DNA of 40,285 bases from a virus: positions 1 to 40,285 of IMG/VR virus record IMGVR_UViG_3300008627_000018. One strand, 5' to 3'. The notes under the pieces are model-generated. The model saw nothing but the letters and a program-made list of their open reading frames with translations, made no database searches and was not told where the DNA came from. The position numbers were made by a program, and so were the translations under genes. This document shows positions 4,601 to 40,271 of this stretch, one piece after another (the stretch's first letter is position 1; the number at the start of each line of letters is the position of its first letter).

Positions 4601-5069
4601 GATTTCAGGAAGATATCTTCCGACATTGCTGGATGCATTTAAGATTACTGAAGATGAATACACAGAAAGAGAGTTGATTGACTTTGAGTTAGAGGGTGTT
4701 GGGTTCAGAGTGTCGGAAAATGTAGAGAGAATAAAGATGATGACTGAGCTTGTAAATTATTTGGAGTTCCGTCATATCTCTGAGTATGATGAAGAAGAGG
4801 AAAACTCTCCGCATTTTTGGACAAAAATTAGTACGGTAGAAAAATTGAGAACAAAAAAAGGTAAACCATATGCAAATGTAAGAGCAGAAGATGGAAGTAG
4901 TTTTAGGGTGTGGCATAATAAATTGCAATATTGTGAAGATGAACTTATTCCTGGCAAGATCATAGCTGTCAAATTAACATCTGACAACTTTGGTAGAAGT
5001 TTAGCATGGGATCGCAATAGTTTATTGACTGAAGAGAGTCTATTAAAATTACAACAAGAGTTATACTAA
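1668..5069 (+). CDS. dnaE: DNA polymerase III alpha subunit (DnaE-type replicative polymerase)
   Basis: At 1133 residues it is close to bacterial DnaE length. An N-terminal PHP domain shows HLHLHSSYGS (12-21) and GVTEHGS. The C-family polymerase core has SPGRGSASGS near 390, the catalytic PDIDNDF near 431 (two aspartates) and the third carboxylate in KIDMLGL near 590. The C-terminal part has a helix-hairpin-helix-like IKGLGDSVLNKI and an OB-fold-like region (LRTKKGKPYANVRAEDGSS). The enzyme would synthesise phage DNA, probably with the host or a phage clamp. T4 relatives normally use a B-family polymerase, so this is a replacement of the replicase. It has its own promoter and Shine-Dalgarno. 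Confidence 0.96.
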   Translation: MSKREIKGFQHLHLHSSYGSLLDAVSKPIAYCEKAANIGQGAIGVTEHGSCASHFAFNQAGKKTDTHIIYGNEFYWAADREQRGLTDEEKEGKTPTESREENKSRLRKAHLLLLAETQEGLDNIYRLNYHANQSGFYGKPTIDNTILRQFNKGIIATTTCVISPMARMLQNHKVDDMSVWFEDMLDIFGNDRFFLELHPHDLDIQREYNQVLIEVFRKKYDVKTLLANDVHYVDENLHETHNFLWRLNTDGKFDEAGIDKLHFATEEEMIKKWYDSGMDDIIEDEYLYEGIESTKEIASRCHAELDTETVKEPKFTVPNGYKDNKTYMLELLQKGMTDKVKSNLIPENEIPVYVDRLKIELELIADKGYLDYFLITNDFTQWAYENDILMSPGRGSASGSLICWLLGITHLNPIKYDLFFERFMNPERIKEPDIDNDFQDNRRADVKNYVASKWGDANIASVCAYTRYSVNTLFRDLAKDKGIDFKLSNKIAKTISGHISLNKDLTTFTDLMNSNKEVREFVSSLEKKEAEDFITTIDTLVGNLRNQTIAGGGVIISTQPLYDVMPLRKSKEGDLVTEWQIDELASMKFLKIDMLGLSTLSVIMEVMKKIDMSIEDLYTMSIDRELLNEEEQKYYDRAYDLLCEGDTYGVFQFGGANITRCLQKMVPRNVEDIAAVNAIYRPGVIKLGATEAFLRRRNGQEEAINDHHPLFNDILKPTENIMIYQEQFIQMFNLLGLNFGQGDILRKFAESMDHKKCNEYLEEHLFPHPDKMVLSVDETRSVAKKLIDNAGYLFNKSHAISYSILAYWTTYFKAKHPAEFTEVMLNNHTGQHEEIALGLTMGRRLLDNPVVSLGDINTFSKDFSVTKDSITIGLKNIKGLGDSVLNKIQTNKPSGGWLDFTEFYRDNLEFKMIPHNGLKLLIQLGLFDGLHFCGKEHSRKMLCDIMDIYNTFSLQTKKNFKTVMVKLFDDEEIQFDDLISGRYLPTLLDAFKITEDEYTERELIDFELEGVGFRVSENVERIKMMTELVNYLEFRHISEYDEEEENSPHFWTKISTVEKLRTKKGKPYANVRAEDGSSFRVWHNKLQYCEDELIPGKIIAVKLTSDNFGRSLAWDRNSLLTEESLLKLQQELY

Positions 5070-12269: not shown

Positions 12270-13052
12270 ATGCCTTTTTCGTTGCAACATAAATGTTTAT
12301 TTATACATATACCAAGAACGGGGGGTATATCTTTTACAAGATCATTAGGAATGGGCGCGCCTAATAAGATTTCAATTGCTCAAGATTTAAATGGTGATTT
12401 TGAATTACGACCTAAAGATGAAACACAGATCCCACTATCGGTTCAATTACATCATCTTTGTATGAAGCACGTACAATTGTTAGGGGTTTTGAATCATTCC
12501 TTACTTACTGAATCTTTTAAATGCGCATTTATAAGAAATCCTTGGGACAAATCCGTATCTGAATATTCTCATTATTATCATAAGTATTGTACAGATTTTG
12601 AAGATTATGTACATAGGTTAGAAAAAATAGTTTCATTTGTAAATGAAAATTTTGTTTTTGATTTTAATAATATTTTCTATAAGGAATATTCAGATTTAAT
12701 GATATCTACTTTCGGACTTGCCCCAACTTGGAAGGGTGAGGTATTTGAACAATCTTATATAAAAGATCACCCTTTTGCAAAGGAGTTAACATGGGTTGAT
12801 CCGCATTTTTTTCCGCAATATTTTTTTATTTATGATGAGTTTGGTAACAATTTAATGGATTTTATAGGAAGGTTTGAAAATTATAGAGAGGATGCTCAAA
12901 AGATTTTAGATCATTTAGAGGTTGGGCAATTAATTCATCATCTTAATTCTTCCAAACATTTGAATTATAGAGAGGTTTATAATTTAAAAACTAAAGATGT
13001 TATTTTTAATTTATTTAAAGAAGATATCCAAAGATTTGATTACACGTTTTAA
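12270..13052 (+). CDS. Sulfotransferase-family protein 1
   Basis: The 260-residue product has the PAPS-binding 5'-phosphosulfate loop FIHIPRTGGISF (11-22) and the 3'-phosphate motif AFIRNPWDKSVSEYS (86-100), the pattern of sulfotransferase family 2 (heparan/chondroitin-type). These enzymes move sulfate from PAPS to sugar hydroxyls. A second family member lies at 27519 beside glycosyltransferases. The central part (NENFVFDFNNIFYKEYSD) is divergent, and the acceptor is unknown. The promoter of the primase operon starts right after its stop. Confidence 0.78.
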   Translation: MPFSLQHKCLFIHIPRTGGISFTRSLGMGAPNKISIAQDLNGDFELRPKDETQIPLSVQLHHLCMKHVQLLGVLNHSLLTESFKCAFIRNPWDKSVSEYSHYYHKYCTDFEDYVHRLEKIVSFVNENFVFDFNNIFYKEYSDLMISTFGLAPTWKGEVFEQSYIKDHPFAKELTWVDPHFFPQYFFIYDEFGNNLMDFIGRFENYREDAQKILDHLEVGQLIHHLNSSKHLNYREVYNLKTKDVIFNLFKEDIQRFDYTF

Positions 13053-26610: not shown

Positions 26611-27522
26611 ATGAAAAAGTTTTTAGCGATTACGCCATACTTTGGTGGAGTGTCTAGCGCACCTCGCCAAACAGAATTGAATAATGTTTTAAGGTATTTT
26701 GAGCATACATATAATAGTTTAAAACCCTTAATGACCAAATTGATTGTTGGGGTTTATAATGATGCTGACTATAATACATTAAGACCTTTTCAATTAAATT
26801 CAGATATAGAGGTAGTTAGGGTTACCACAGAAGGTGGGAGTGAAATAGATCCCATCTTTTTACCTGCTAATCTTGTGCGATATATACAACAAAGAGGCTT
26901 TGATGAAGAGTATGTATACTTTACTGAAGCCGATCAAATACTTTATGCACAAGATTGGAATAATGTTTATAATGTTATTGACAATGATAAAAACATTTAT
27001 ATTGTTCCTCAACGGTTTGAGCAAATTCCTAATGAACTTATACAGTCACGAATAGATAAGTACACAGATACTACTGAAGGTAGGTTTGTAGAATTTGATG
27101 GAGTATGTAGAGAAAATAGTAATAAGTATGTTGTAGCTAATGAACCGGTGGGACCAATTTTTGAAGCCATGAGAACTCATGGTACAGAGAAGATTCCAGC
27201 AAATCAAACCTATAATTATGATGATCATTTTTATGTATGCCCTTCTCCACAAACAAATTTTATTGATGCTCCAGAATATGGTCAAGCTTATGGTGCTGCT
27301 TATTTATGTCACCGTGATTTTTTTAATAGAGTAGATTTTATTGATGCAAGGTTTGAGTTTATGAGAGAAGGTAAGCCCTTTTTTATTGAGTATCAACCTA
27401 CTGAAACAACTGCGGGCCATGATCTTCTTCGCACGGAAGATGCAATATGTTTAAAGAGTAGAGATTTCTTTTATTTTCATGTAGATCATTTAAGTGGATA
27501 TGAGTTTAATAAAAAACTATGA
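26611..27522 (+). CDS. Glycosyltransferase-like protein (GT-A type)
   Basis: The 303-residue product begins KKFLAITPYFGG and has IVGVYNDADYN, YVYFTEADQILYA (EAD as a DxD-like site near residue 109) and later AAYLCHRDFFNRVDFI. These fit a GT-A nucleotidyl-sugar-binding fold. Specificity is unknown. It overlaps the sulfotransferase gene by ATGA, suggesting consecutive action on one glycan. Confidence 0.62.
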   Translation: MKKFLAITPYFGGVSSAPRQTELNNVLRYFEHTYNSLKPLMTKLIVGVYNDADYNTLRPFQLNSDIEVVRVTTEGGSEIDPIFLPANLVRYIQQRGFDEEYVYFTEADQILYAQDWNNVYNVIDNDKNIYIVPQRFEQIPNELIQSRIDKYTDTTEGRFVEFDGVCRENSNKYVVANEPVGPIFEAMRTHGTEKIPANQTYNYDDHFYVCPSPQTNFIDAPEYGQAYGAAYLCHRDFFNRVDFIDARFEFMREGKPFFIEYQPTETTAGHDLLRTEDAICLKSRDFFYFHVDHLSGYEFNKKL

Positions 27523-28358
27523 TATCAAAAGAAGGTAGGTTTATATTTTTTCATATACCAAGAACAGGTGGTAGTGCTGTACAAGATTGCTTGTGGGGAG
27601 ATCGCACTGAAGATAAGGCTGGTAGTCACCCGCGCGATAACCCTGATTATCTTGGTCCGTATGATTGGCACTTGCATGGCTTTAATCGCGACCCAACTGC
27701 AAAAGAGCGACCAATAGAAACAATAGAGCATGAAGGGAAAGTAATTGACGTAATTCAGCCGGGTAAAATTGATGTAGGTGATGTGGTGGGCCATGTTGGT
27801 CAAGGTCTTTATGATTGGAATACAAAATTTTTAGCCCAAGACTCTCAGCCCTATTCATTAAATTATGGAAAGGAAAAGTTTGAAGAGTATTTTAAGTTTG
27901 CTTTTGTGAGAAATCCTTGGGATAGATTTATATCTTTGTGGGTTAAGTTTAAAGAGGAAGTAAAATTACAAGAGCAATTTAATGGATTGTTTGACTTACA
28001 TCTAGATACAGATTTTAAGGAACCACAAGAGTTAATAAGATATTTATTACTGGCATATAGAAAAGGATTGTTGTTGCCTCGCTGGTTTAAACCACAATAT
28101 GAATATGTGCATGATGAAAACTTACGAGTGTTAACTAATTATGTAGGGATGTATGAAAAATTTCAATTCAGTTTTGACTTTCTCTGTGATAGAATAGATG
28201 TACCCCATAAAACATTGCCATGGAGTAGTGAGGAACATAGGCGAAAGAAAAAGGATGGAAAACATTATACTGAATGGTATGATGATATGATGATAAATGC
28301 TGTTGCAGAGATTTATCATCACGATATAAGGACTTGGGGTTACGAATTTGAAAATTAG
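27519..28358 (+). CDS. Sulfotransferase-family protein 2
   Basis: A 279-residue protein with PAPS loop FFHIPRTGGSAVQDCLW (10-26) and 3'-phosphate motif FAFVRNPWDRFISLW near 127-141. The C-terminus is GYEFEN. It shares both motifs with the protein at 12270 but little between them. It would transfer sulfate to a sugar, and the genes just upstream encode glycosyltransferases. It is the last gene of the transcript ended by the terminator at 28358. Confidence 0.83.
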   Translation: MISKEGRFIFFHIPRTGGSAVQDCLWGDRTEDKAGSHPRDNPDYLGPYDWHLHGFNRDPTAKERPIETIEHEGKVIDVIQPGKIDVGDVVGHVGQGLYDWNTKFLAQDSQPYSLNYGKEKFEEYFKFAFVRNPWDRFISLWVKFKEEVKLQEQFNGLFDLHLDTDFKEPQELIRYLLLAYRKGLLLPRWFKPQYEYVHDENLRVLTNYVGMYEKFQFSFDFLCDRIDVPHKTLPWSSEEHRRKKKDGKHYTEWYDDMMINAVAEIYHHDIRTWGYEFEN

Positions 28359-28764: not shown

Positions 28765-29058
28765 ATGAAACTTAGGGACGTTCTTCAAGAAGTGCCAATG
28801 GCACCACTTAACAAACCGCAGAAGTTTGGTCGCGACCGCCGTGATGCGAAAGAAAGATTTGAAGTTCGCTATATGGGTAAAAAGGGCAAGAAGGTAGAGA
28901 TCGCTCGGTTTATGACGCTTAGCGCAGCAAAGAAGTTTATGAAAGATATAAAGAAAACTGGAGCTAAGGCTCTTATCTTTGTAAATGGTAGGCCACTTAA
29001 GTTAGCCAAACAAGCAACTATGGACTTTGGTGAATCTCGCAAAGGGGTTAAAACATGA
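28765..29058 (+). CDS. Basic protein with capsid-targeting-like leader
   Basis: A 97-residue protein from ATG 28765 (GGAGAG 28755-28760). It opens MKLRDVLQE|V, the first of the MKL leaders, and the remainder is strongly basic (RDRRDAKERFEVRYMGKKGKKVE). A basic protein with such a leader is like T4 internal head proteins that are packaged with DNA and trimmed by the prohead protease. That role is an inference. Confidence 0.7.
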   Translation: MKLRDVLQEVPMAPLNKPQKFGRDRRDAKERFEVRYMGKKGKKVEIARFMTLSAAKKFMKDIKKTGAKALIFVNGRPLKLAKQATMDFGESRKGVKT

Positions 29059-29123
29059 AGTTAAATAATGTGATGCGGTCGCATCAATTAAAGGTTAGAG
29101 ATATTGAGAGATATATACGATGA
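29055..29123 (+). CDS. 22-residue micro-ORF: leader fused to paralog's C-terminus
   Basis: The ORF overlaps both neighbours by ATGA. It reads MKLNNVMRSHQLKVRDIERY and then IR; the last nine residues equal those of the following gene. It looks like an internal-deletion remnant of a gene copy, though a short peptide may be made. A 31-nt near-identical repeat explains the shared end. Confidence 0.45.
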   Translation: MKLNNVMRSHQLKVRDIERYIR

Positions 29124-29124
29124 A
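29094..29124 (+). repeat. 31-bp direct repeat, copy 1
   Basis: Matches 29459-29489 at 30 of 31 positions (A at 29099 versus G at 29464). Both copies encode VRDIERYIR, the stop and the overlapping ATG of the next MKL gene. Confidence 0.9.
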
Positions 29125-29488
29125 ACTAATTAGTTTAATAAAAGAAGCAAAGGATGAAGAAACATCTGCTGGTGATGTATACACCGGAGGTTTTTTGGAT
29201 AAAGGTGAAATCGTTCTTATGCTTCAGCCAAAATCAGCAGCGCATGGTACAAGATGGAATGGTGTAAAGTTTCAATTGCAGCCTAAGTGGGGTGAACCTC
29301 ATGTAGCAGCAGGTGGGGTTTCTGTGTCCGAACCCGTTTCTTTTGGGAAGAGTAAGAAAATAAAACTTACTGCTAAGATGAAGAAGCAAATTAAAAATAT
29401 GTTGACAGGTCCAGAGTCCGATGAGAATTTGGATAGATTGGATAGAGCAGGAACTAGTGTTAGGGATATTGAGAGATATATACGATGA
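29120..29488 (+). CDS. Hypothetical protein with capsid-targeting-like leader
   Basis: A 122-residue protein opening MKLISLIKE|AKDEE, where I-K-E|A fits the T4 gp21-type cleavage pattern (L/I-x-E|A/G/S). The body has a beta-like GGFLDKGEIVLMLQPKSAAHG and a basic segment (GKSKKIKLTAKMKKQIKN). It ends SVRDIERYIR, within the 31-bp repeat. Packaged head protein is the inferred role. Confidence 0.68.
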   Translation: MKLISLIKEAKDEETSAGDVYTGGFLDKGEIVLMLQPKSAAHGTRWNGVKFQLQPKWGEPHVAAGGVSVSEPVSFGKSKKIKLTAKMKKQIKNMLTGPESDENLDRLDRAGTSVRDIERYIR

Positions 29489-29489
29489 A
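29459..29489 (+). repeat. 31-bp direct repeat, copy 2
   Basis: Second copy of the 29094-29124 element, lying at the end of the 29120 gene and start of the 29485 gene, consistent with tandem duplication of a gene unit. Confidence 0.9.
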
Positions 29490-30231
29490 GTTAAATGAAG
29501 TTCTTTATGAGGATAAAGAAAGACTACTAGAGCTAGCTATCTTCATGTCTTTAAATCCTCATCAACTTAATGAAGCTGATGGTGATTGGCGAAGCAAGTT
29601 TAAACAAGCTGCTCAAAAGGCTGGTTTAAAGTTGGGTGGTAATGAGCGTGGTTTATTATCCATTTTATCAAAGGTTAGTAAACACATTAGTAAAATTATT
29701 TATTATGCTATAAAGGCTAAAGGTGGCGATAGACCAGCAAGAGATGAGTTAAAAAAATTAGTAAAAAGAAAAGCAACTAAAGAAGAATTAATTGATTTCT
29801 TTTTTAAGTTAGACACACTCACTCTAAGTATATTAACTGGACCCATAAATATTATAGATGCTTTGACAGGTTGGAATCTTGTAGGTAGTTTAAAAGATAA
29901 AGGTAAAACACCCAACAAGCGTATCAAAGATGCTCTTACTGCATTGACTAAATCCATAGAGGGGTTGTCTCCTAAGATAAAAAAGAGAGTGTCAAATAAC
30001 TTGGATAAAATTAAAAAGATGGTTTTGACAACAGAGGGATGTAAGCCTAAAATTACTCGTAGAGAAATGAAAGATGCTGCATTGATTGCGAGTTTTGGGG
30101 TTCCTACAAATAAAAAGAAATGGAAGGTTTCTAAGAGAGCTGCCAAAAGAAAATTTGGTGAAGCTTCTAGTGCTGCAAAAAATCGTTATGCTGAAAAACA
30201 TTATCGTGAAAGTGGAGGTACGTATAAATAA
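29485..30231 (+). CDS. Basic protein with capsid-targeting-like leader
   Basis: A 248-residue protein starting in an ATGA overlap, opening MKLNEVLYEDKERLLE. A later L-N-E|A (near residues 29-32, HQLNEADGDW) would be a second gp21-type site. The rest is Lys-rich and helical (LKKLVKRKATKEELIDFFFK; WKVSKRAAKRKFGE near the end). It resembles a DNA-associated internal head protein. No enzyme motif is seen. Confidence 0.68.
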   Translation: MKLNEVLYEDKERLLELAIFMSLNPHQLNEADGDWRSKFKQAAQKAGLKLGGNERGLLSILSKVSKHISKIIYYAIKAKGGDRPARDELKKLVKRKATKEELIDFFFKLDTLTLSILTGPINIIDALTGWNLVGSLKDKGKTPNKRIKDALTALTKSIEGLSPKIKKRVSNNLDKIKKMVLTTEGCKPKITRREMKDAALIASFGVPTNKKKWKVSKRAAKRKFGEASSAAKNRYAEKHYRESGGTYK

Positions 30232-30245
30232 TTTGCCATATCAAG

Positions 30246-30284
30246 GGTTGTTCTACTAAAGGTTGTTCTACTAAAGGTTCTTCT
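30246..30284 (+). repeat. 15-bp tandem repeat, about 2.6 copies
   Basis: GGTTGTTCTACTAAA occurs at 30246-30260 and 30261-30275 and partially (GGTTCTTCT) at 30276-30284. It lies in the gap between two genes, and TTGCCATAT-like words flank it (30233 and 30284). Probably replication slippage; a regulatory role is unproven. Confidence 0.8.
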
Positions 30285-30306
30285 TGCCATATAACATAGG
30301 AGAACT

Positions 30307-30729
30307 GTGGTGGAAAGATATCCTCCGTGGGAAAGAATAGCCTCGCCTACTGAACTAAAACAAAAGTATGAGTCGGCTAGAAATGAAATAATAAATTATA
30401 AAAAAATGGCTCAGATGGCCAATGCGACAAGCAAATCGCTTGCTAAGGATAAACACAAGTATAAGAATGAAGCAAAAGTAGCAAGTAAACAATTGGTTCG
30501 TTTAACAAAAAAACAAAAGGCTACTGATGAGGCAAAGAAAGCTGGGTATTGGAGTGGAGCAGCAACTATAGGGGTTACAATTTTATATGAAACCTGGAAG
30601 GTGATCGGGTTTCCTGGTGGTCGTGCTTGGATGGAATGGTGGAGTCACGAAGCAGTCTATGGTGTGATGGTGTGGTGCGCTACAGTAGCATTTGGATGGT
30701 TTTATAGAGCAGGACATAGAGACACATAA
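30307..30729 (+). CDS. Coiled-coil protein with C-terminal membrane segments
   Basis: A 140-residue protein with GTG at 30307 or 30310 after AGGAGA (30297-30302). The first 85 residues are a basic coiled coil, followed by two likely membrane segments (SGAATIGVTILYETWKVIG and AVYGVMVWCATVAFGWFY). The topology is like small phage membrane-anchored or holin-associated proteins. It has no MKL leader, unlike its neighbours. Function unknown. Confidence 0.62.
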   Translation: MVERYPPWERIASPTELKQKYESARNEIINYKKMAQMANATSKSLAKDKHKYKNEAKVASKQLVRLTKKQKATDEAKKAGYWSGAATIGVTILYETWKVIGFPGGRAWMEWWSHEAVYGVMVWCATVAFGWFYRAGHRDT

Positions 30730-30739
30730 GGAGTAAAAA

Positions 30740-31531
30740 ATGAAATTAATAGATATTGTACAGTTAACCGATATGATAAACGAGGGTGTGTATGATCCTG
30801 GTATTTTTAAGGCAATCTTTTTAGCTGGTGGTCCTGGCAGTGGGAAATCTTTTGTCGCCAATGAATTACTAGGTATTCCCAAAGGTGGGTTTAGTAAAAT
30901 GGATATGTCTTTTGCTCCTAGCGGAGTTAAACTTGTCAATTCTGATCCAGAGTTTGAGTATTTTTTAAAGAAGGCTGGCGTAGATCCGAGTGATTTAGGT
31001 AGTTTGAGTGATGAAGAGTTTCATCAACTTACTGAACCCGAAGATTCTCCTCGTCAAAAAGCTAAACGAGTAAAGCAAACAAAAGAAAAATTGTATACTA
31101 AAGGTCGTTTGGGGTTATTGGTTGATGGTACAGGTGATGATTACGCTAAGATAAAAAAGAAGAATGATGAACTAAAGAGATTAGGCTATGATACTTATAT
31201 GATTTATATTAATACCACTCTAGACATAGCCCTACAGAGAAATGCTCAACGTGATAGAAAACTGCCTGAGAAGATGGTAGAAAAGATTTGGAAAGATGTA
31301 CAAAAGAACTTGGGTAAGTTTCAAAGTTTATTTAAAGGTAATTTTAAAATCATTGATAATTCTGAAGAGCGAGTAGCTAAAAGAGATCCTAAGGCTGGCG
31401 TTATTATATTTCCAAAAAGCTTTTATACCACTATTAATAAGTTTATCAAAACTCCGGTGAAAAGCCCTATAGCTAAGAGATGGATACAACGACAACTGGA
31501 TATGAAAAAGAAGTACGGAATGAGCAGATAA
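30740..31531 (+). CDS. P-loop kinase-like protein (zeta-toxin/kinase fold) with MKL leader
   Basis: A 263-residue protein with Walker A FLAGGPGSGKSFVANELLG near residue 28-46, GLLVDGTGDDYAKIKKKNDE in the position of Walker B and substrate site, and a lid-like region with RNAQRDRKLPEK. This fits zeta-toxin-like or polynucleotide-kinase-like P-loop enzymes. It starts MKLIDIVQLTDMINE|GVYD, with I-N-E|G as gp21-type site, so the enzyme might be packaged in the head and injected. Substrate unknown. Confidence 0.75.
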   Translation: MKLIDIVQLTDMINEGVYDPGIFKAIFLAGGPGSGKSFVANELLGIPKGGFSKMDMSFAPSGVKLVNSDPEFEYFLKKAGVDPSDLGSLSDEEFHQLTEPEDSPRQKAKRVKQTKEKLYTKGRLGLLVDGTGDDYAKIKKKNDELKRLGYDTYMIYINTTLDIALQRNAQRDRKLPEKMVEKIWKDVQKNLGKFQSLFKGNFKIIDNSEERVAKRDPKAGVIIFPKSFYTTINKFIKTPVKSPIAKRWIQRQLDMKKKYGMSR

Positions 31532-31863
31532 TGATAATGACAGAAACAGCTATAGGTAAGTGGCGAGATCTTATGGGTTCGTTAAATCGTGATGCTGACA
31601 CTACGCATTTACGTTTATCTATAAAGGGTGGTGGGTGTTCTGGATTTATGAAAGAGTTAGATTTTTGTGATGCTAAAGACATTACAGCGATGGATATGGT
31701 TACAGAGTTTGAAGATGTAAAGATAGTAGTAGATCCCAAAAGTTTATTGTTTTTGCATGATGCCACATTGGATTATCACGACGGGCTGATGGGCGCAGGG
31801 TTCACAATAGAGATACCCGCTGCAAAAAATTCTTGTGGATGTGGTGACTCTTTCGGTATGTAA
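31531..31863 (+). CDS. A-type iron-sulfur cluster carrier (IscA/ErpA/SufA family)
   Basis: ATG 31531 overlaps the previous stop (TAATG), giving 110 residues. Conserved cysteines are C36 in GGGCSGF and C102/C104 in NSCGCGDSFG, the three ligands of A-type carriers. These proteins pass Fe-S clusters to apo-enzymes in the cytosol. Homologs occur in some aquatic phages, where they may support host or phage Fe-S enzymes. A longer frame reaching back to 31480 lies inside the kinase gene and is unlikely to be the start. Confidence 0.88.
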   Translation: MIMTETAIGKWRDLMGSLNRDADTTHLRLSIKGGGCSGFMKELDFCDAKDITAMDMVTEFEDVKIVVDPKSLLFLHDATLDYHDGLMGAGFTIEIPAAKNSCGCGDSFGM

Positions 31864-31868
31864 AGTAA

Positions 31869-32189
31869 ATGGGGTCTTTTGACTTTTGGTTCGCTAGTAG
31901 TGGATTTCTGCTCGTAGCAGCGCTTGGAGCAAAAATATTTAGCGTATCTCGGTTAACAAGTTTGAGGAAAGAGTGGCAGTTAGTAGAGAAGGAAAAACGC
32001 AATAAACGGAAAGAATTAAGTAAAGTAAAGAATCAAAAAACAGTACTTAATGCAAATATAAAGTTATTAATAAAAAATAAAGATGAGTTAATGAGTCGTC
32101 TTATTGCTATGGAGAAAGAAGTGGAAGAGTTTGAAAAACAAGAAAAGAAGCGTGAAGAGCGTTATTCGTCCAACAAAGTGGAGAGATAA
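31869..32189 (+). CDS. Membrane-anchored coiled-coil protein (i-spanin-like layout)
   Basis: A 106-residue protein: one N-terminal transmembrane helix (FWFASSGFLLVAALGAKIF, residues 6-24) and a long highly charged coiled coil to the end. An inner-membrane spanin has this layout, but the lysis genes are 12 kb away, so other membrane scaffolds are equally likely. It starts 6 nt after the Fe-S carrier stop. Confidence 0.6.
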   Translation: MGSFDFWFASSGFLLVAALGAKIFSVSRLTSLRKEWQLVEKEKRNKRKELSKVKNQKTVLNANIKLLIKNKDELMSRLIAMEKEVEEFEKQEKKREERYSSNKVER

Positions 32190-32253
32190 TTGAGAAACCT
32201 CAAATTCCAAAATCCGGGCGGACCCAATTTTTTCCCCCATACGACATTTTTTT

Positions 32254-32295
32254 ATGAAACTTAAAACTCTACTAGAAAGTAATGAAACTAACTGA
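32254..32295 (+). CDS. 13-residue micro-ORF with MKL leader
   Basis: ATG 32254 to TGA 32293-32295 encodes MKLKTLLESNETN. This equals the shared leader with L-L-E|S, then a stop. The next gene's ATG (32282) lies inside it. It is either the remnant of a deleted leader gene or an upstream peptide. The 64-bp region before it (32190-32253) holds a C-run and T-rich stretches but no gene. Confidence 0.35.
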   Translation: MKLKTLLESNETN

Positions 32296-32761
32296 AGTCT
32301 TTACAAAGCCAAAAGGCAAAATTAAGTGGGATGAGCGTACTTCCACAAGGTGGGTTGGTGAGTTTGCCGTTAGTGGTAGGTTTAGTGGCAGACAAGGCGA
32401 TACTAGGAAGTTTATGTTTGCTGCATTTAAAGGGGTAGACGCGTCTATGGTGTATCCTCTTACTGATAAAGAGATAGATAAAAAGAAAACGTGGGAAGTT
32501 GGCTTTTATCAAACAGAGCCGGAACTTTCTCACGATATTACGGGCGCTGGAAAGCCAGTAGAGATTTTTAATAAAGCTTTAGTAGCGTTTAAAGAGTTTG
32601 CCCAAGGGGCGAAACCAGAAGCTATTGCTTTTACAGCCAAGGAGCCAAGTAGAATAAAGTTATATGATATTATGGCAAAAAAATTAGCCAAAGGGTTAGG
32701 GCTTAATGTTCTATCTGCAAAGAGTGGTAATTACATCTTACAAAGCAAAAAGGTGAAATAA
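32282..32761 (+). CDS. Hypothetical protein with MKL start
   Basis: A 159-residue protein opening MKLTEVFTKPKGKIKWDERT; the leader is similar but lacks the L-x-E site. The body reads like a globular alpha/beta protein (WEVGFYQTEPELSHDITGAG) with a GNAT-like ending (YDIMAKKLAKGLGL). That similarity is weak. It overlaps the next ATG by TAATG. Confidence 0.62.
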   Translation: MKLTEVFTKPKGKIKWDERTSTRWVGEFAVSGRFSGRQGDTRKFMFAAFKGVDASMVYPLTDKEIDKKKTWEVGFYQTEPELSHDITGAGKPVEIFNKALVAFKEFAQGAKPEAIAFTAKEPSRIKLYDIMAKKLAKGLGLNVLSAKSGNYILQSKKVK

Positions 32762-33084
32762 TGAAAAAAATTAAATATATTATAGCGTCAGCAGCATTAC
32801 TTTTTATTCTTGTTTTTAGTGTGACAGCCCAAGAAGAAGGCGCACAACAAAGTTATTATGGAGGTAGCGGAAGTATAGAAGTAGAAAGACTAGCATCTCG
32901 CATGGAAAGATTTATGAAGATGCACAAAGAGGTGGTAAGAAATCAGATGCAAATAAATTCATTGTTAGGTGAACTGATTGAGTTAGAAATAAAAAATGCT
33001 CAGAATGGTAGATTTGCTCATATTAGTGACAGCACTTATTTTGATACGAGAACTGCTGAAATATTCAAACGGCCCAAACCTTGA
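32761..33084 (+). CDS. Secreted or periplasmic small protein
   Basis: A 107-residue protein with a signal peptide (MKKIKYIIASAALLFILVFS, cleavage near VTA|QEE). The mature part has a Gly/Ser/Tyr patch and an amphipathic helix (VERLASRMERFMKMHKEVVR). ATG 32761 overlaps the preceding stop. It may act in the periplasm. Function unknown. Confidence 0.6.
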   Translation: MKKIKYIIASAALLFILVFSVTAQEEGAQQSYYGGSGSIEVERLASRMERFMKMHKEVVRNQMQINSLLGELIELEIKNAQNGRFAHISDSTYFDTRTAEIFKRPKP

Positions 33085-33092
33085 GACAATAA

Positions 33093-33299
33093 TTGAAAAC
33101 AATAAAAGACTGGACTTGCTTAATATTAACTTCGGGCCTTATGATATTACTAATGATATTAGTACTTGGCGACTTCTATGTTTCTCTGCAAGAGCATCGG
33201 CCGGTAGATGAAAGTGTGGTCAATCTTTTACAAATGGCTGTGACAGGAGTGATTGGTATCATTGCTGGTTACTTAAGTGGTAAAGAGAAAACACAATGA
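33093..33299 (+). CDS. Two-helix membrane protein, holin-like
   Basis: A 68-residue protein from TTG 33093. Two hydrophobic helices (LILTSGLMILLMILVLG, residues 10-26, and LLQMAVTGVIGIIAGYLSG) with a short polar connection and a charged tail (GKEKTQ). This is the size and topology of class II holins, but such proteins are also common in phages for other roles. Its end overlaps the following ATG. Confidence 0.55.
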   Translation: MKTIKDWTCLILTSGLMILLMILVLGDFYVSLQEHRPVDESVVNLLQMAVTGVIGIIAGYLSGKEKTQ

Positions 33300-33679
33300 A
33301 ACTTAAAGATGTATTAGAGGCCATGTATACCACTACCCAATATTGGATACTTCCAAATGGAAAGGTCAAGAAGATGAGAAGTGGGCATGAAGATTACCTC
33401 GCAGATACTGGAATGACTTATGGGAAGGCATTTCTTGATGGTCACATTCGTCTCGCAGTTGATGATGGGGATGGTACACCTTCCGCGGAATGGAGTAATG
33501 ATGCATCACCGGCGGCTAAAAAAGCATTAGGGGCTTTTATAAAGAAAAGTGATGACGGTCTTTTGTATTATGACCTTGTAAAACCCAATCCACGAGCGGG
33601 AAAATCTCAACGCGCACCACAGATGATTTACTTAAAAAGTGGTCAAACAGATTACAAGGGGTTTATGAAGATACGATGA
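33296..33679 (+). CDS. Hypothetical protein with capsid-targeting-like leader
   Basis: A 127-residue protein opening MKLKDVLE|AMYTTTQ, close to the shared leader pattern (V-L-E|A). The body is globular and hydrophilic (GHIRLAVDDGDGTPSAEWSN). It starts and ends in ATGA overlaps. No known motif. Inferred head-packaged protein. Confidence 0.65.
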   Translation: MKLKDVLEAMYTTTQYWILPNGKVKKMRSGHEDYLADTGMTYGKAFLDGHIRLAVDDGDGTPSAEWSNDASPAAKKALGAFIKKSDDGLLYYDLVKPNPRAGKSQRAPQMIYLKSGQTDYKGFMKIR

Positions 33680-34080
33680 GAATAAGCACAAAACCAAAAT
33701 CGACAAGTACATTGAAGATAACAACAGCAACGAAAGAAGCGAATAATGTAATGTTGAGCGCGGCAGTGGGAGCATTACAGGGATTAAGCCCTCATCTAAG
33801 AATAAGGGATCAAAGAAAAAATCTCGACTCAAAAAAAAGAAATAGGAGAGATGAATTGATTGTTCAAAAAAGGGCAGAACCCGTTAAATACTTGAGTAAT
33901 GTAACGGGAATAGAAGGGAAAAATAAACTTACGTTGGAACAAGATTATCATCACTCTATATCAAATACAAATAAAACTGCATTGTTGGGTAGTCTTTCAA
34001 ATGCACAAAAACCTCAAGAAAACTTAAATAGAATAGTTTCCGATATTAAAACTGGTAGACAGATAGACTTCACAGCCTGA
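33676..34080 (+). CDS. Basic Ser/Thr-rich hypothetical protein
   Basis: A 134-residue protein beginning with Lys/Ser/Thr (MRISTKPKSTSTLKITTATK) and a basic central helix (RIRDQRKNLDSKKRNRRDEL). It lacks the MKL leader. Low-complexity character and basic charge suggest nucleic-acid or head association. Unknown family. Confidence 0.55.
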   Translation: MRISTKPKSTSTLKITTATKEANNVMLSAAVGALQGLSPHLRIRDQRKNLDSKKRNRRDELIVQKRAEPVKYLSNVTGIEGKNKLTLEQDYHHSISNTNKTALLGSLSNAQKPQENLNRIVSDIKTGRQIDFTA

Positions 34081-34088
34081 GAAAATAG

Positions 34089-34292
34089 ATGAAACTCTCT
34101 GAAATAAGAGTTTTTACACCTCATAAAATAGGTATTAGCTTAATAAATCTATTTACTGATATGCGTGAGCCAGTAAAAAACCCTCCAATGGAAGAGTTAA
34201 ATAAAATTCCACCTCAAGATGGTTGGGGACGCGATGGATATAATACATTGAAATTAGATCCTACGGGCGGAGTGTTTGATAAGGTCGTATAA
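34089..34292 (+). CDS. Small hypothetical protein with MKL start
   Basis: A 67-residue protein opening MKLSEIRVFTPHKIGISLIN. Only the first five residues follow the leader pattern. The rest is Pro/Asn-rich (EPVKNPPMEELNKIPPQDGW). Function unknown. Confidence 0.5.
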   Translation: MKLSEIRVFTPHKIGISLINLFTDMREPVKNPPMEELNKIPPQDGWGRDGYNTLKLDPTGGVFDKVV

Positions 34293-34329
34293 GTTTATTT
34301 ACATATATTTATGAAAGACATTCACGCGT

Positions 34330-34335
34330 TATAAT
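34330..34335 (+). promoter_or_regulatory. Candidate -10 box before the 34375 gene
   Basis: A perfect TATAAT lies in the 82-bp gap upstream of the membrane-protein gene, but the region 17 bp upstream (34307-34312) is ATTTAT, a poor -35. A promoter needing an activator is possible. Confidence 0.4.
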
Positions 34336-34374
34336 GGTTAGTGTAGAAAACTATAACGTAAATGGAGACTATTT

Positions 34375-34695
34375 ATGGAATTTGGACCTATTCTTGAAAA
34401 CGTAGCTAGTGTGTTTGCACTATTAATAACTCTTTCTGTTATTATTGAAAGAGGACTTGCTACGCTTTTTGGGTGGAAGTATTACACGAAACTCTTAGGT
34501 GGTAAGGGACTTAAGGTTCCTATCGCCGTTGGTGTTTCTTTTCTAATCGCCAATCAAGCGCCAGTTGACTTGGTAGCAATGTTGTTCAACGGAGAGACTT
34601 CGGTCTTAGGCCAAGTGCTTACTGCTGGATTGCTGAGCGGTGGAAGTAAAAAGGTAGCGGAAACTTTTGGTGACATAAAGACCGCAGTGGGCTAA
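34375..34695 (+). CDS. Putative membrane protein, holin candidate
   Basis: A 106-residue protein with GGAG 7 nt before ATG. One hydrophobic segment covers residues 10-25 (VASVFALLITLSVIIE), followed by GLKVPIAVGVSFLIANQAPV and an ending LLSGGSKKVAETFGD, a pattern of small phage holin-like proteins. It has its own candidate promoter and terminator, so it may be expressed alone. The role in lysis is inferred. Confidence 0.6.
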   Translation: MEFGPILENVASVFALLITLSVIIERGLATLFGWKYYTKLLGGKGLKVPIAVGVSFLIANQAPVDLVAMLFNGETSVLGQVLTAGLLSGGSKKVAETFGDIKTAVG

Positions 34696-34710
34696 TAAGC
34701 CCTTTCAAAA

Positions 34711-34740
34711 TATGTGGGTCGCTTTTGGGCGGCTCACATA
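34711..34740 (+). terminator. Strong stem-loop, likely terminator
   Basis: TATGTGGGTCGC (34711-34722) pairs with GCGGCTCACATA (34729-34740) as 12 bp with two G-T wobbles and a 6-nt loop. A T-rich but interrupted tract follows. A smaller GGGCT/AGCCC hairpin (34689-34702) covers the gene's stop. Together they likely end the 34375 transcript. Confidence 0.65.
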
Positions 34741-34762
34741 ACTTATTTTATATAGGAATAAA

Positions 34763-35374
34763 ATGAAATTACATAAAGCATTATTGTCCGAGCAAGATAT
34801 TCGTGAATTAATTCAAATGTATGTTTCTTCTATTAAGAAGAATAATATGCAGCGGCGTGAAAGATATAAGTCTATGATATGGGTGCGGCTTGCTGATCTT
34901 GGTTTTGATAGACCCCATATAAAAAGAGTCATTAACGATTTAACTGATGTAGATACCGAAAAAGATGTAGACATTATTATGTCTCGTTATAGGTTATGGG
35001 GTGATGATTATGTAGATAGTTTTAGAGCAACGGAAGCAACGCTTGTAAATGCTTTAACGGAAGCGGAGCGGGAAGAAGATGAAGATGGGGTGGAGCAAAA
35101 TATTAAAACTTATAAAATGATTTTACAAATACCTTTTGCTACAAAAAAGAATAAAGATCAAAAATTAAAAAAATTAAAGTTTGATTTTAATGTTTTAGGT
35201 GTTAAAGTTAATAAGGAAAAAGATGGGGCGGTAGATACTATTAATCCTGAAGCTCAAGACAACCCTTCTGTAGAATATGTGGTTGGGTTAGAAATAGAAA
35301 CTGAAATGACTCGTTCTGAATTGGAGAATACATTAGAGCCAGACTATAAGATCCTTAAACTAAAGGAAGTCTAA
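34763..35374 (+). CDS. Hypothetical protein with MKL leader
   Basis: A 203-residue protein opening MKLHKALLSE|QDIREL, a leader-like start with L-S-E. The N-terminal half is helical and charged; the C-terminal half is acidic with KLKKLKFDFNVLGVKVNKEK and EIETEMTRSELENTLE. AGGAA precedes the ATG by 4 nt. It overlaps the WYL gene by one base (TAATG). No family recognised. Confidence 0.65.
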   Translation: MKLHKALLSEQDIRELIQMYVSSIKKNNMQRRERYKSMIWVRLADLGFDRPHIKRVINDLTDVDTEKDVDIIMSRYRLWGDDYVDSFRATEATLVNALTEAEREEDEDGVEQNIKTYKMILQIPFATKKNKDQKLKKLKFDFNVLGVKVNKEKDGAVDTINPEAQDNPSVEYVVGLEIETEMTRSELENTLEPDYKILKLKEV

Positions 35375-35740: not shown

Positions 35741-36544
35741 ATGAAGTTAGAAAATATTGGTGTGGTCATGTTGTCTCATGGTCGCAGAGATAAGCTTGAA
35801 ATAAGCTTAAAGTCTTATGAAGAAAATGGTTTGATTGATATGGTTGGTGATAATTTTATTTTTTTTAATGAAGTGGCCAACGATGATATTAGCTTAATAG
35901 AAAATGATTATAAGAGTTTCGAGTGGGGCGGACATTCTGTAAATTGTGGTATCGGGTGGGGAATGGTAAAGGGTATAACGGAGTGTGATACAAAATATGT
36001 TTTGTTTTTAGAGAATGATTTTGAATTAGTGTCCGATAAAAATGATATTTATAAACAGTTAGAGTTAGGGTACCGTAATCTTGAGAAAGATAATGTAGAT
36101 ATTATAAAATATCGCCAAGTAAAAGATTACATACATACTTCTAACGAGGCTAAACATTGGGCTGGCGAGATTGATTTTACAGGAAATGATAATGGTTCTG
36201 ATACTGGTCGGAAAGGTTGTCCGGAAAAGAATTGGTGGATAGGTTTTGCAGTAGAAGATAAATTTGGTTATAATAATTCTGATATTTGTGAAAAGATAGA
36301 TGAAGAAGGTGAAACTGTTTTATGGCGTATGTCATGTCAATATGCAAATTGGAGTAATAACCCTTTTCTGTGCAGCAAAGAATGGTTTTTAGATTTAGCA
36401 GCTAAAGTAGGGTTTAAAGAAATGATTGCCCCACCTAATGCAAGAAGCCCTGATTTTGAAGAACAGGTAGAGGCAAACGGATGGTGGCAGAAACAAGATT
36501 ATACGATGGGTATTTTACCGGGCTTATTTAGGCATCAACCATGA
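35741..36544 (+). CDS. Glycosyltransferase-like protein (GT-A type)
   Basis: A 267-residue protein with an N-terminal GT-A strand IGVVMLSHGRRDKLEISLKS and the motif KYVLFLENDFELV (END as DxD-like site near residue 92). Aromatic-rich C-terminal half with a WANWSNNPFL-like acceptor region. Although it starts with MKL, the following residues do not match the leader. It precedes terminase, so the target may be capsid or DNA. Specificity unknown. Confidence 0.68.
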   Translation: MKLENIGVVMLSHGRRDKLEISLKSYEENGLIDMVGDNFIFFNEVANDDISLIENDYKSFEWGGHSVNCGIGWGMVKGITECDTKYVLFLENDFELVSDKNDIYKQLELGYRNLEKDNVDIIKYRQVKDYIHTSNEAKHWAGEIDFTGNDNGSDTGRKGCPEKNWWIGFAVEDKFGYNNSDICEKIDEEGETVLWRMSCQYANWSNNPFLCSKEWFLDLAAKVGFKEMIAPPNARSPDFEEQVEANGWWQKQDYTMGILPGLFRHQP

Positions 36545-36553
36545 GAAGTAAGA

Positions 36554-38212
36554 ATGGATAAAGAACAAGCAGAAGAATACGTAAGATGTAGAAAAGATCC
36601 GATTTACTTCATCAAGAAGTATGGTAAAATACGCCACCCCACTAAGGGTCTTTTGACATTTGAGCTTTGGGACTTCCAAGAAGAGACTTTACAAAGTTTT
36701 CTTGATAACTCATACAATATTATTTTAAAGGCAAGACAATTAGGTATTTCTACTCTGTGTGCTGCTTATGCAGGTTGGATGGCTAATTTTTTTAAGAACA
36801 AGGAAATTTTTATTCTTGCTACTAAAAGAGACACAGCTACTAACTTAGTGGATAAGGTAAGGGTTTTTTTAGATGAAATACCTCTCTGGTTAAAATCTGA
36901 AGTAACTATCGACAATCGTCAAAGTATGGAGTTAGCAAACGGTTCCAAAATAAAAGCAGGCGCAACTGGTTCTAACGCTCAAGATGCTGCTCGTTCAGAA
37001 GCATTAAGTTTGTTGATTATTGATGAGGCAGCTTTTATTAAGGCGATGGATGGTATTTGGACTGCTGCTCAACCTACATTAGCAACAGGTGGTGATTGTG
37101 TGGTGTTGTCTTCACCAAATGGTATTGGTAATTGGTTTCATAAAAGTTATATAGAGGCTCAAGCTGGCGTTAGTGAAAGAGTAGGTGATAAAAATATTTC
37201 CTTTACTCCTATCAATTTGCCATGGCATTTTCATCCCGATAGAGATGAAGAGTGGGGTAGAAATGAAAGAAAGAAAATAGGTGATCAAGCTTTTGCACAA
37301 GAACATGATTGTGACTTTCTTCAATCGGGTAATAATGTAGTTAGTTTAAAAGCCTTAAGTTGGTACGAAGAACATCCTAATGATGAAGAAGAAGCAGATA
37401 ATGGTTTTCGACCATTTATGAGAGAACCAGAAGAAAAAACTTGGGTAGATAAAAATCTTTGGATATGGAAATATCCCGACTATGATAAACAATACATACT
37501 CTCTGCTGATGTTGCAAGAGGTGATGGTGATGATTTTTCTGCATTTCATGTTATTGATGTGGAAAACTATGAGCAGGTTGCAGAGTATAAGGGTAAACTT
37601 AATACTGATGTTTACGCTCATCTTGTTCATAATACAGCCGTTCAATATAATAATGCATACATAGTGGTTGAAAATGCTTCTATGGGCCATCATGTGGTTA
37701 TGAAAATCATAGAGATGGAATATAAAAATATGTATTGGACTATAAAAGATTTAACTAGAATACATGAAGGTAATTCTAATCAATTACATTACGATCCTTA
37801 CAATGTACCAAAGAATGCAGTACCTGGTTTTACGATGAGTATGAAAAGTAGACCAGCTTGTGTGGCTCGTATGGAAGAAGATTTAAGAACCCATGATTTT
37901 ATTTTACATTCAAAAAGAACGCAGAATGAGTTGGAAACCTTTATATTTAATAATGGCAAACCCGAGGCAATGTCAAGTTACAACGATGATCTTGTAATGT
38001 CTTTATCTATTGGAATGTATGTAAGGTCAACTACTCTTAAATTTAATAACCATGATGAAGATATGACGAAGCAACTATTAAATGGCCTTAACTTTCAATC
38101 TACACCTTATCAGTTTGGTATCTATAAAAATGATAAGGAAAAAATGGAAGAACACTTTACCTTTGACACTGGCAATGGCCAACGAGAAGATTTACGATGG
38201 ATGATGAGTTAA
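36554..38212 (+). CDS. Large terminase subunit (T4 gp17-like)
   Basis: A 552-residue protein with an N-terminal packaging ATPase: Walker A-like KARQLGIST (59-67) and Walker B LLIIDEAAF (153-161, catalytic E158). The C-terminal RNase H-fold nuclease begins ILSADVARGDGDDFSAF with D319. A last acidic motif in NDDLVMSLSIGMY lies near 485. The length and motif style match T4-like terminases that use the RQLGxST P-loop. It translocates DNA into proheads through the portal encoded two genes downstream. Confidence 0.95.
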   Translation: MDKEQAEEYVRCRKDPIYFIKKYGKIRHPTKGLLTFELWDFQEETLQSFLDNSYNIILKARQLGISTLCAAYAGWMANFFKNKEIFILATKRDTATNLVDKVRVFLDEIPLWLKSEVTIDNRQSMELANGSKIKAGATGSNAQDAARSEALSLLIIDEAAFIKAMDGIWTAAQPTLATGGDCVVLSSPNGIGNWFHKSYIEAQAGVSERVGDKNISFTPINLPWHFHPDRDEEWGRNERKKIGDQAFAQEHDCDFLQSGNNVVSLKALSWYEEHPNDEEEADNGFRPFMREPEEKTWVDKNLWIWKYPDYDKQYILSADVARGDGDDFSAFHVIDVENYEQVAEYKGKLNTDVYAHLVHNTAVQYNNAYIVVENASMGHHVVMKIIEMEYKNMYWTIKDLTRIHEGNSNQLHYDPYNVPKNAVPGFTMSMKSRPACVARMEEDLRTHDFILHSKRTQNELETFIFNNGKPEAMSSYNDDLVMSLSIGMYVRSTTLKFNNHDEDMTKQLLNGLNFQSTPYQFGIYKNDKEKMEEHFTFDTGNGQREDLRWMMS

Positions 38213-38438: not shown

Positions 38439-40271
38439 ATGGCAGATAGATTTGATATACTAAAGAAAATACTAAAAGGTGGCTCGGCTTCTTATAAGGT
38501 GCCTACGGAGCGCCCCGGAATCAGAGCGCAAAAACAAGCCTTTGATACTTTCCAAAGAGCATCATCTGCTTTATATCAGCAATCTTTGGTTGGTGGAGTA
38601 GAGAGACTAGAGAGGGTAAAAGATTATGAAGAGATGGATCACTACCCAGAGATTACAAGAGCCTTAGACATTTATGCTGATGACTCTATGACGTATGCTG
38701 AAGATGGGAAGATAATACAAATTGTTTCAGATGATGATAAAATCATACATGAGTTAGAAGAGTTGCTGTATCAAAGATTAGATTTAGATTTTCACCTTTG
38801 GACATGGATTAGAAATATGTGCAAATATGGTGATATGTTTAATCTACTAGATATTGTTGATAAGGAGGGTGTGTTAGGTGCAATTGCAATGCCGGTGGGT
38901 GAGATTGAAAGGGAAGAAGGATACAACAACGATCCTAATAGTTTAAGGTTTAAGTGGACTGCTCAAGGTAATACAGTGTTTGAAAACTATCAAGTTTCTC
39001 ACTTGCGTATTTTAGGTGACGATAGATTTTTACCTTATGGTAGGTCGGTGTTAGATTCTTCTCGTAAGGTTTGGAAACAATTGTTAATGGCAGAAGATGC
39101 GATGTTGATTTATCGTATTAGTAGAGCGCCTGAGCGCAGAGTGTTTTATGTTGATGTTGGAAACATTCCTCCCAGAGATGTAGACTCTTACATGCAGAAT
39201 GCAAGAGACAAGCTAAAGAGAATTGCGGTTACACAAGAATCTAATGGTAATCTTGATATGAGGTATAACCCCGAATCTATTCTTGAAGATTTCTTCATTC
39301 CGGTTCGTGGTGATAGAGGTAGTAGAATTGAGACATTGCCTGGTGGTGAAAATGCTGCAGCGATTGAAGATATAGAATACTTACAAAATAAATTGTTTAT
39401 TTCGTTGGGGGTACCTAAGTCGTATCTTACTGCTGAAGAAGATTTATCGGGTAAGTCAACACTAGCACAGGAGGATATTAAATTTGCGAGAACTATTCAA
39501 CGCATTCAAAAGATTGTTGTCAGTGAATTGGCGAAGATATCACTTGTCCACCTTTATTTGCGTGGGTATGATGAATCTTCCATTTACAACTTTGATTTAA
39601 GATTAACTAATCCTTCTACGGTTACGGAAATGATGCACCTTGAATTGATGGGTAGTCGTTTTGATACAGCGAGCAACATGGCAGACTCTCCATTGTTGTC
39701 ATTAGATTATATCCAAAAAGAAGTGTTAAAACTCTCGGCTTCTGAAATTGTAGATATTAATTTACAGATTGAGAAGGAAGCGCATGAAGCTTATATTATT
39801 GAGCAGTTAAAGATGGGTGAACAACCTGATCCAATGGCCGGTGGTGGCGCACCGCCGATGGGTGGAGGTGAAGAAGGTGCTGGTGAAGAAGATGAAACAG
39901 GTGGTGATGATTCAGCAGAAGAAAATACCACAAGACAATACACTCAAGATGCCATGCCTTATGATCCTATTGGTACAAGAGAGTTGCCTGGCTATCCTAA
40001 GAATTATGCTTTTAATGAAGATGGTGAGTCGGAGCAATTAGAAGATAAACTTAATGATCCAGAAAACGAAGAGATGAAAAAGACGCTTGATTTTATTCGT
40101 AAGAAAGCAAAAAATCGTAGAAGTAAAAAAGATATGTTTGATCGAACCATCTCTGATATTATGAAATATGACCATGTAATGAATGATATGATGGGTAATC
40201 TTATAAAGGATCAAGCGGAAAATAAGTTAGAAGAATCAACTTTATCGTTAATGAAGGCTAAAGAGGATTAA
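38439..40271 (+). CDS. Portal protein (T4 gp20-like)
   Basis: A 610-residue protein with AAAGGAAGG before ATG 38439. The body carries the T4-type portal pattern: EEMDHYPEITRALDIYADDS near 65, FENYQVSHLRILGDDRFLPYGRSVLDSSRKVWKQL region near 180-215, and SYLTAEEDLSGKSTLAQED near 330. The C-terminus has a Gly/Glu-rich low-complexity loop (about 465-495) and a Lys-rich helical end. It forms the dodecameric DNA gate of the capsid. The gene is complete; only 14 bases follow. Confidence 0.93.
   Translation: MADRFDILKKILKGGSASYKVPTERPGIRAQKQAFDTFQRASSALYQQSLVGGVERLERVKDYEEMDHYPEITRALDIYADDSMTYAEDGKIIQIVSDDDKIIHELEELLYQRLDLDFHLWTWIRNMCKYGDMFNLLDIVDKEGVLGAIAMPVGEIEREEGYNNDPNSLRFKWTAQGNTVFENYQVSHLRILGDDRFLPYGRSVLDSSRKVWKQLLMAEDAMLIYRISRAPERRVFYVDVGNIPPRDVDSYMQNARDKLKRIAVTQESNGNLDMRYNPESILEDFFIPVRGDRGSRIETLPGGENAAAIEDIEYLQNKLFISLGVPKSYLTAEEDLSGKSTLAQEDIKFARTIQRIQKIVVSELAKISLVHLYLRGYDESSIYNFDLRLTNPSTVTEMMHLELMGSRFDTASNMADSPLLSLDYIQKEVLKLSASEIVDINLQIEKEAHEAYIIEQLKMGEQPDPMAGGGAPPMGGGEEGAGEEDETGGDDSAEENTTRQYTQDAMPYDPIGTRELPGYPKNYAFNEDGESEQLEDKLNDPENEEMKKTLDFIRKKAKNRRSKKDMFDRTISDIMKYDHVMNDMMGNLIKDQAENKLEESTLSLMKAKED

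Follow-up and report, generated by a model that had tools for sequence, protein, structure and literature searches.

Why should a series of otherwise unrelated phage proteins begin with nearly the same short peptide? This question is raised by the virus record IMGVR_UViG_3300008627_000018 of the IMG/VR database, which was analyzed here over its complete length of 40,285 bases (the window) and which closes with a T4-type terminase large subunit gene and a portal gene, the marks of an uncultured T4-like phage. From position 28765 onward, gene after gene starts with Met-Lys-Leu (MKL), followed in most cases by a leader that ends at a glutamate. A preliminary description, made from the letters of the window, interpreted this leader as a capsid-targeting propeptide that is removed by a prohead protease similar to T4 gp21. 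Our results favor this interpretation, to which we give a probability of roughly 85%: the MKL leader would be a capsid-targeting sequence (CTS) specific to this lineage, most likely an address label that loads proteins into the head for delivery together with the DNA, and thus a marine counterpart of the mechanism known for T4.

In the proposed mechanism, the tag would be an amphipathic N-terminal peptide of 8–10 residues, M-K-L-x-(D/E/N)-(V/I/A)-(L/I)-x-E, whose hydrophobic residues 3 and 6 would bind the assembling prohead core and whose terminal (L/I)-x-E would be cleaved by the gp21 prohead protease during maturation. The mature cargo would then be free in the head next to the DNA and could enter the host upon infection. 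Cargo domains are swapped behind the tag, and at least one such domain occurs untagged in non-T4 phages. For the phage of the window itself, we infer core binding, cleavage, packaging and injection from the evidence assembled below.

The Leader in the Window and in Related Phages

ATG-initiated MKL starts were verified at every coordinate listed in the preliminary description, and one additional, unlisted start was found at 35741. MKL-starting genes account for 9 of the 19 genes from 28765 onward and for 0 of the 38 genes upstream (Fisher p = 1.0e-5; p = 1.9e-4 when only the seven accepted leader genes are counted). Six genes (28765, 29120, 29485, 30740, 33296, and 34763) carry the full leader, MKLxxhhxE or longer with its end at (L/I/V)-x-E, and one (32282) carries the leader without the site; two other starts (34089 and 35741) are probably fortuitous, and two micro-open reading frames (micro-ORFs) are probable remnants. 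The shared leader on otherwise unrelated proteins is thus real, and the membership first proposed stands for the six full-leader genes and for the leader of 32282, but not for 34089 and the micro-ORFs.

For comparison, 80 loci that have a related portal were used, together with further loci whose protease is related. In the close clade, 51 cargo families have an MKL start, some of which are false starts. Two hydrophobic residues at positions 6–7 were found in 30 of these 51 families vs. 49 of 472 internal xKL sites (p = 1e-14), and the motif [LIVMF]7-x-E9 in 12 of 51, as compared with 15 of 472 internal xKL sites (p = 1.2e-6) and 8 of 254 non-MKL N-termini (p = 6e-6). At residue 3, every one of the six Leu codons occurs among 40 cargo families with a leader, and the codon is the same in only 31% of pairs. 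Since codons vary freely while the amino-acid pattern is kept, the conserved element is a peptide and not a repeated DNA element. The leader proper covers about 8–10 (up to 16) residues in most genes, and longer forms of 15–50 residues exist, which corrects the range of 8–14 residues given earlier.

Clade-wide, about 40 families of unrelated proteins stand behind this short peptide. The leader genes are clustered in two stretches, one from the tail genes to terL and the other from gp21 to the scaffold gene; about ten lie within 16 kb in locus L035, only about three occur in the 59 kb upstream of the head genes in contig G003, and gp21 is closely followed by a leader gene in nearly every relative. 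The cargo identified so far includes a P-loop kinase, a pterin-4a-carbinolamine dehydratase (E 1.3e-16), an Arr-like ADP-ribosyltransferase (leader-bearing in L005:70-393; PF12120 E 2.6e-4, below the curated cut-off; phrog_2110 E 2e-22), a cytidylyltransferase and an HAD/PNK-like phosphatase; most cargo is without known function.

Fixed Junctions behind Exchanged Leaders

The strongest evidence is that the same cargo occurs behind differing leaders while the junction stays unmoved. The kinase family of 30740 carries the leaders MKLIDIVQLTDMINE, MKLKDIISE, MKLKDIINE, MKLIDILYE, and MKLGHVIRKSSKELKE, and in the isolates Methylophilales phage Melnitz and Pelagibacter phage HTVC008M the leaders MKTFAELQE and MIPFILKE, respectively. 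Behind every leader the cargo starts with G(V/L)(Y/N)D, as in MKLKDIISE↓GVYD, MKLIDILYE↓GVND, MKLGHVIRKSSKELKE↓GVND, MKTFAELQE↓GVYD (Melnitz), and MIPFILKE↓GLYD (HTVC008M), where the arrow marks the predicted cut. The homologue of 28765 at L104:14856 has the same NKPQKFG domain behind MKLADILTE↓A, and the homologue of 29120 in L039 has a leader of about 30 residues that ends in ELKE↓A. For the HKYSK cargo, the isolates gave one partial match only. In total, 48 junctions from 10 cargo families were verified in sequence. P1 was Glu in all of them, P3 was L/I/V/M in 46 of 48 (background 0.23), and P1' was A/G/S in 37 of 48. The P3 preference is the part of this table that was not built in by selection, and it is seen in 16 of the 17 junctions whose leader departs from the standard MKL register (p = 8e-10).

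Glu sites are also retained between the domains of fused cargo genes. Gene 29485 of the window has a second site at residue 30 (HQLNE↓A), and its C-terminal PKITRREM domain, which follows LTTE↓G (in LTTE↓GCKPKITRREM), is encoded by a separate leader-bearing gene in L018:730 (MKLNDIAE↓G). Similar inter-domain sites occur in L018:954 (KMTE↓AEYQG; two separate genes in L105) and L027:2022 (DVTE↓AHKYSK), and in a 778-aa protein of the jumbo phage Atu_ph07 (EVTE↓GVND, LTE↓L, and LNE↓L). These sites suggest that some fused proteins may be cut into separate proteins.

A natural experiment is provided by the phrog_7595 cargo. In the T4-like phages C48C1, Melnitz, immuto and HTVC008M this domain lies behind (L/M)-x-E and starts with (A/S/G)E(Y/F). 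The gene products of siphophage Kolga, of Pelagibacter phage HTVC026P and of Roseobacter phage CRP-901 begin with MA(K/T)Y, which corresponds to Met plus the predicted mature N-terminus. The gp21 profile PF03420 was detected in 4 of 4 T4-like phages with the extended form vs. 0 of 6 non-T4 phages holding phrog_7595; three of these six start exactly at the junction, and the remaining three have their starts at other points, with no Glu site at that place in any of them. The cleavage rule (L/I)-x-E↓(A/G/S) put forward in the preliminary description is therefore backed by junctions that stay fixed while leaders change, by the untagged cargo of phages that lack gp21, which begins at the residue predicted to be the mature N-terminus, and by the mass-spectrometry (MS) data from S-CREM2 described below.

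The Prohead Protease and the Capsid Protein Cut Site

In relatives of the window's phage, the portal gene is followed by the gp21 protease, the scaffold, the major capsid protein (MCP), and further leader genes. A Peptidase_S77 gene (PF03420, E = 2.6e-27) lies 2.3 kb past the end of the portal gene in L009, whose portal is 92% identical, and L002, whose portal is 100% identical to that of the window, closes on the first 22 residues of gp21 about 3.5 kb past the portal. PF03420 was found in 8 of 8 longer contigs tested. The preliminary description had named the lack of a prohead protease as an outcome that would speak against it; the protease is there, past the portal, in the relatives. The MCPs of the relatives have (L/I/V/M)-x-E at the T4 gp23 cut position (LNE↓ES, SMYE↓AT, LISE↓AN, and IVSE↓AN); by homology, the specificity of the clade protease would thus agree with the end of the leader.

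Virion Data from Other T4-Like Phages

For the T4-like cyanophage S-CREM2 a proteome of the virion has been published (PMC10665884), and five of its proteins begin with leaders in the T4 register (MKDFDSFLEE, MKDLHSFLTE, MKRFDAFLTE, MQTFSMFFSE, and MKNFSSFLTE). Among its 219 proteins, the strict pattern occurs in 5 of 52 virion-detected vs. 1 of 167 undetected proteins (p = 0.003). The detected proteins with MKxFxxFLxE or a similar leader are a SAM hydrolase, an APH-like kinase, a cytidylyltransferase and two unknowns, and they take in three of the six non-structural virion proteins singled out by the authors (PMC10665884). A fourth of these six, the Cas9-annotated nuclease ORF12 (L121:7704-10313), has a leader-like FASFMAE↓A at residue 25.

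Atu_ph07 has a third leader type, M(K/R)WxxLxE, with 13 occurrences vs. 0 for the reversed pattern. Ten of these 13 genes form one run (coding sequences 53-62 by record order; L110:39484-49507) inside a cluster of 46 coding sequences, 29 of which were found in virions, and the Atu_ph07 homologue of the kinase is part of a protein with this leader. Those members of the run of ten adjacent genes that were read show a Y-R-G-M ADP-ribosyltransferase-like motif.

Several points weigh against a capsid-targeting function of the MKL leader. The virion proteomes at hand, those of S-CREM2 and Atu_ph07, both come from phages whose leader sequences are other than MKL. The T4-register pattern was scored after the N-termini of S-CREM2 had been seen, and a looser pattern with optional P3 had no link to MS detection in this phage (6 of 52 vs. 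13 of 167, p = 0.28), so that only the strict T4-register form is informative; moreover, the S-CREM2 authors could not exclude co-purification (PMC10665884). The junction table was compiled with the Glu rule already known, and P1 Glu is thus built in. In some members the Glu site is absent (32282) or an unusual residue (V, Y, I, Q, or D) stands at P1'. Finally, the protease lies outside the window: the PF03420 profile search of the window record gave no match, since the contig stops at the portal and does not extend to the gp21 position.

Alternative Explanations

The leader could instead be a structural docking or membrane tag that recruits assembly factors to the prohead or the inner membrane, its bearers being parts of the core or of the assembly machinery rather than injected cargo. 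The concentration of leader genes among the head genes, the leader gene closely behind gp21, as expected for an assembly protein, and the position of the 34763 family close to terL all suit this view. We nevertheless consider it unlikely, given that the cargo includes enzymes with no obvious assembly role (the dehydratase, the Arr-like ADP-ribosyltransferase, the phosphatase, the cytidylyltransferase, and the kinase) and that phages lacking gp21 have one of the cargoes without a tag.

It has also been considered whether the peptide has no function, the shared start having either arisen incidentally when gene starts recombined or were duplicated in tandem, or serving to enhance the initiation of translation. 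A 36-nt repeat does surround two of the starts and leader genes do form tandem arrays, but the amino-acid pattern and the junction Glu persist while the Leu codons of residue 3 differ freely, and unrelated leaders in other phages end at the same junction, which makes this explanation very improbable. As for chance, AAA and TTA/CTA are frequent codons at a GC content of 35%, and on this view MKL starts would simply be common in AT-rich phage genes; this reading is refuted by the family-level statistics, since positions 5-9 are enriched as well, and the skew within the window (p = 1e-5) leaves it a negligible probability. A lineage-specific CTS thus remains the preferred reading.

Comparison with Known Systems

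In T4, a CTS is carried by IPI, IPII, IPIII and Alt. IPII and IPIII start with MKTYQEFIAE↓A (NC_000866), and amber-suppressor work assigned targeting to residues 4 and 7, and processing to residues 8 and 10; the gp21 cut falls behind (L/I)-x-E (PMC9026906). Once the tag has bound to the core of the prohead and gp21 has cut, the cargo is left inside the head, from which it is ejected along with the DNA (Mullaney and Black, 1996; reviewed in PMC9026906). The leader MKLxDVLxE has the same spacing minus one residue (Y4 = L3, F7 = V6, I8 = L7, and E10 = E9), which bears out the analogy drawn in the preliminary description, and the strict T4-spacing form (residues 3, 6, 7, and 9) occurs in only 15 of 51 families (background 10 of 390). 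Both systems have a short N-terminal tag (10–19 residues in the T4 internal proteins), a gp21-type protease in the same head operon and unrelated mature proteins behind one tag. They differ in number, with four tagged proteins in T4 vs. six strong ones in the window, about ten in L035 and about 40 families clade-wide, in the tag sequence, which is one residue shorter in the MKL clade, and in the position of the genes beside and inside the head module. The MKL-clade cargo also includes enzymes and domains common to other phages, and the fused multi-cargo genes keep a site between domains.

The inner-head propeptides of the giant phages SPN3US and phiKZ are likewise removed by a gp21 relative, after x-x-E, and are thought to target ejection proteins. 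Those of SPN3US mostly have 111–254 residues, and the rule in giant phages is A-x-E or S/A/G-x-E (PMC10052503, PMC5694885), whereas the MKL clade has mostly 8–16 residues and (L/I/V)-x-E. Polyvalent proteins (Iyer et al., 2017, PMC5512222) are packaged phage proteins that join several effector domains, and in the 778-aa protein of Atu_ph07, domains homologous to the window cargoes 30740 and 32282 stand behind a leader of the M-K-W type; in contrast, the domains of the MKL clade are mostly separate genes with their own tag each. The open-access literature, to which the search was confined, describes the T4 CTS and remarks that it may be a general way of packaging for T4-like phages; the MKL leader family is not described there. 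The MKL system is best regarded, as the evidence supports, as a variant of T4 capsid targeting that stands out by its scale, its place beside the head genes and the exchange of cargo between phages. Of the modular head-loading system proposed earlier, the modular part is supported, with the kinase behind many leaders, and loading and injection in the window's phage would be expected from the T4 precedent. More tentatively, T4-like phages of sea and soil might share a general, exchangeable address code, with lineage-specific tags on tens of effector domains and fused genes acting as polyproteins that gp21 would split in the head into separate injected enzymes; we regard this wider picture as possible but doubtful.

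Members in the Window and Neighboring Genes

Coordinates are collected in Table 1. The structure prediction for the kinase 30740 is of low confidence (predicted local distance difference test, pLDDT, 41). In the model of 33296, the mean pLDDT is 53 over the first ten residues and about 85 in the folded domain behind them, which fits a tag lying outside the fold; the cargo fold had no significant match in PDB or BFVD. The leader of 32282 is kept across its family, but 32282 lacks the Glu site, and a homologous domain in the Atu_ph07 multidomain protein comes after LTELFD; in T4, an Asp at the Glu position stops cleavage but not targeting (PMC9026906).

Table 1. MKL-starting genes and head-module landmarks of the window (arrow, predicted cleavage).
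Feature	Coordinates	Strand	Remarks
Cargo gene, 97 aa	28765..29058	+	Leader MKLRDVLQE↓V
Micro-ORF MKLNNVM...KVRDIERYIR	29055..29123	+	36-nt direct repeat D2
Cargo gene, 122 aa	29120..29488	+	Leader MKLISLIKE↓A
Two-domain cargo gene, 248 aa	29485..30231	+	Leader MKLNEVLYE↓D, site at residue 9
P-loop kinase-like cargo (AAA_33, zeta-toxin-like)	30740..31531	+	Leader MKLIDIVQLTDMINE↓GVYD
Micro-ORF MKLKTLLESNETN, leader only	32254..32295	+	No Shine-Dalgarno-like sequence
Cargo gene, phrog_16075	32282..32761	+	Leader MKLTEVFTKPK, no Glu site
Cargo gene, 127 aa	33296..33679	+	Leader MKLKDVLE↓A
MKL-starting gene	34089..34292	+	Start probably fortuitous
Leader-bearing gene, 203 aa	34763..35374	+	MKLHKALLSE↓Q; short way upstream of terL in window and relatives
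Glycosyltransferase-like gene	35741..36544	+	MKLENI start, no Glu site
Terminase large subunit (T4 type)	36554..38212	+	Marks head module
Portal protein gp20	38439..40271	+	Portal_T4, E 5e-74

Two genes were rejected as members. The MKL start of 34089 is probably due to chance, because its homologues in L089 and L091 do not start with MKL, and 35741 is probably not a leader gene, its MKL(E/K)(D/N)I continuing straight into the first strand without a Glu site. The last codons of the micro-ORF 29055-29123 and the next start copy the end of 29120-29488 in the 36-nt repeat (92% identical), and for this reason the micro-ORF is read as what a deletion has probably left of a tandem duplicate of 29120-29488. 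The micro-ORF at 32254 is probably a remnant as well.

Other shared N-termini were noticed in related phages. One, approximately M-(K/Q)-x-K-K-S-(E/Q)-L-(R/K)-x-x-(I/V)-x-E, occurs on prohead-region proteins (L091:10609, L091:11037, L089:11267, L088:2980, and L083:1458, 2044, and 12352), and another, FDLKKFLVENKLTxNSxxL, on three immuto proteins; both are possibly further targeting tags. A search with KSELRxLIKExL for the former type gave almost no matches, the pattern being too narrow. A homologue of ribosomal protein bS21 (L089:14495-14725; PF01165, E 1.1e-12) is encoded immediately upstream of the scaffold gene within the prohead region of relatives, and Microcystis phage Mel-JY01 has an RpsU-annotated gene in the same region. 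Within the cargo cluster of the window, 31480-31863 encodes an iron-sulphur cluster biosynthesis protein (PF01521, E 2.2e-14, IscA/ErpA-like) without a leader. Elsewhere, the window encodes two Sulfotransfer_2 family proteins (27519-28358 and 12270-13052) and, alongside its T4-type head module, a bacterial-type DNA polymerase III alpha subunit with a PHP domain (1668-5069).

Implications

If the MKL leader is a CTS, the internal-protein repertoire of uncultured T4-like phages would become readable from sequence by means of the tag and the Glu junction, and small genes of unknown function could be assigned to a place, the head, and to a moment at which they act, the start of infection. An explanation would be offered for the puzzling virion enzymes of S-CREM2 (the SAM hydrolase, the kinase, and the NMNAT-like cytidylyltransferase), for which contamination was not excluded by the authors. 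Short tags would become available for packaging proteins in other phages, and the cargo list would represent candidate factors of early host takeover or counter-defence.

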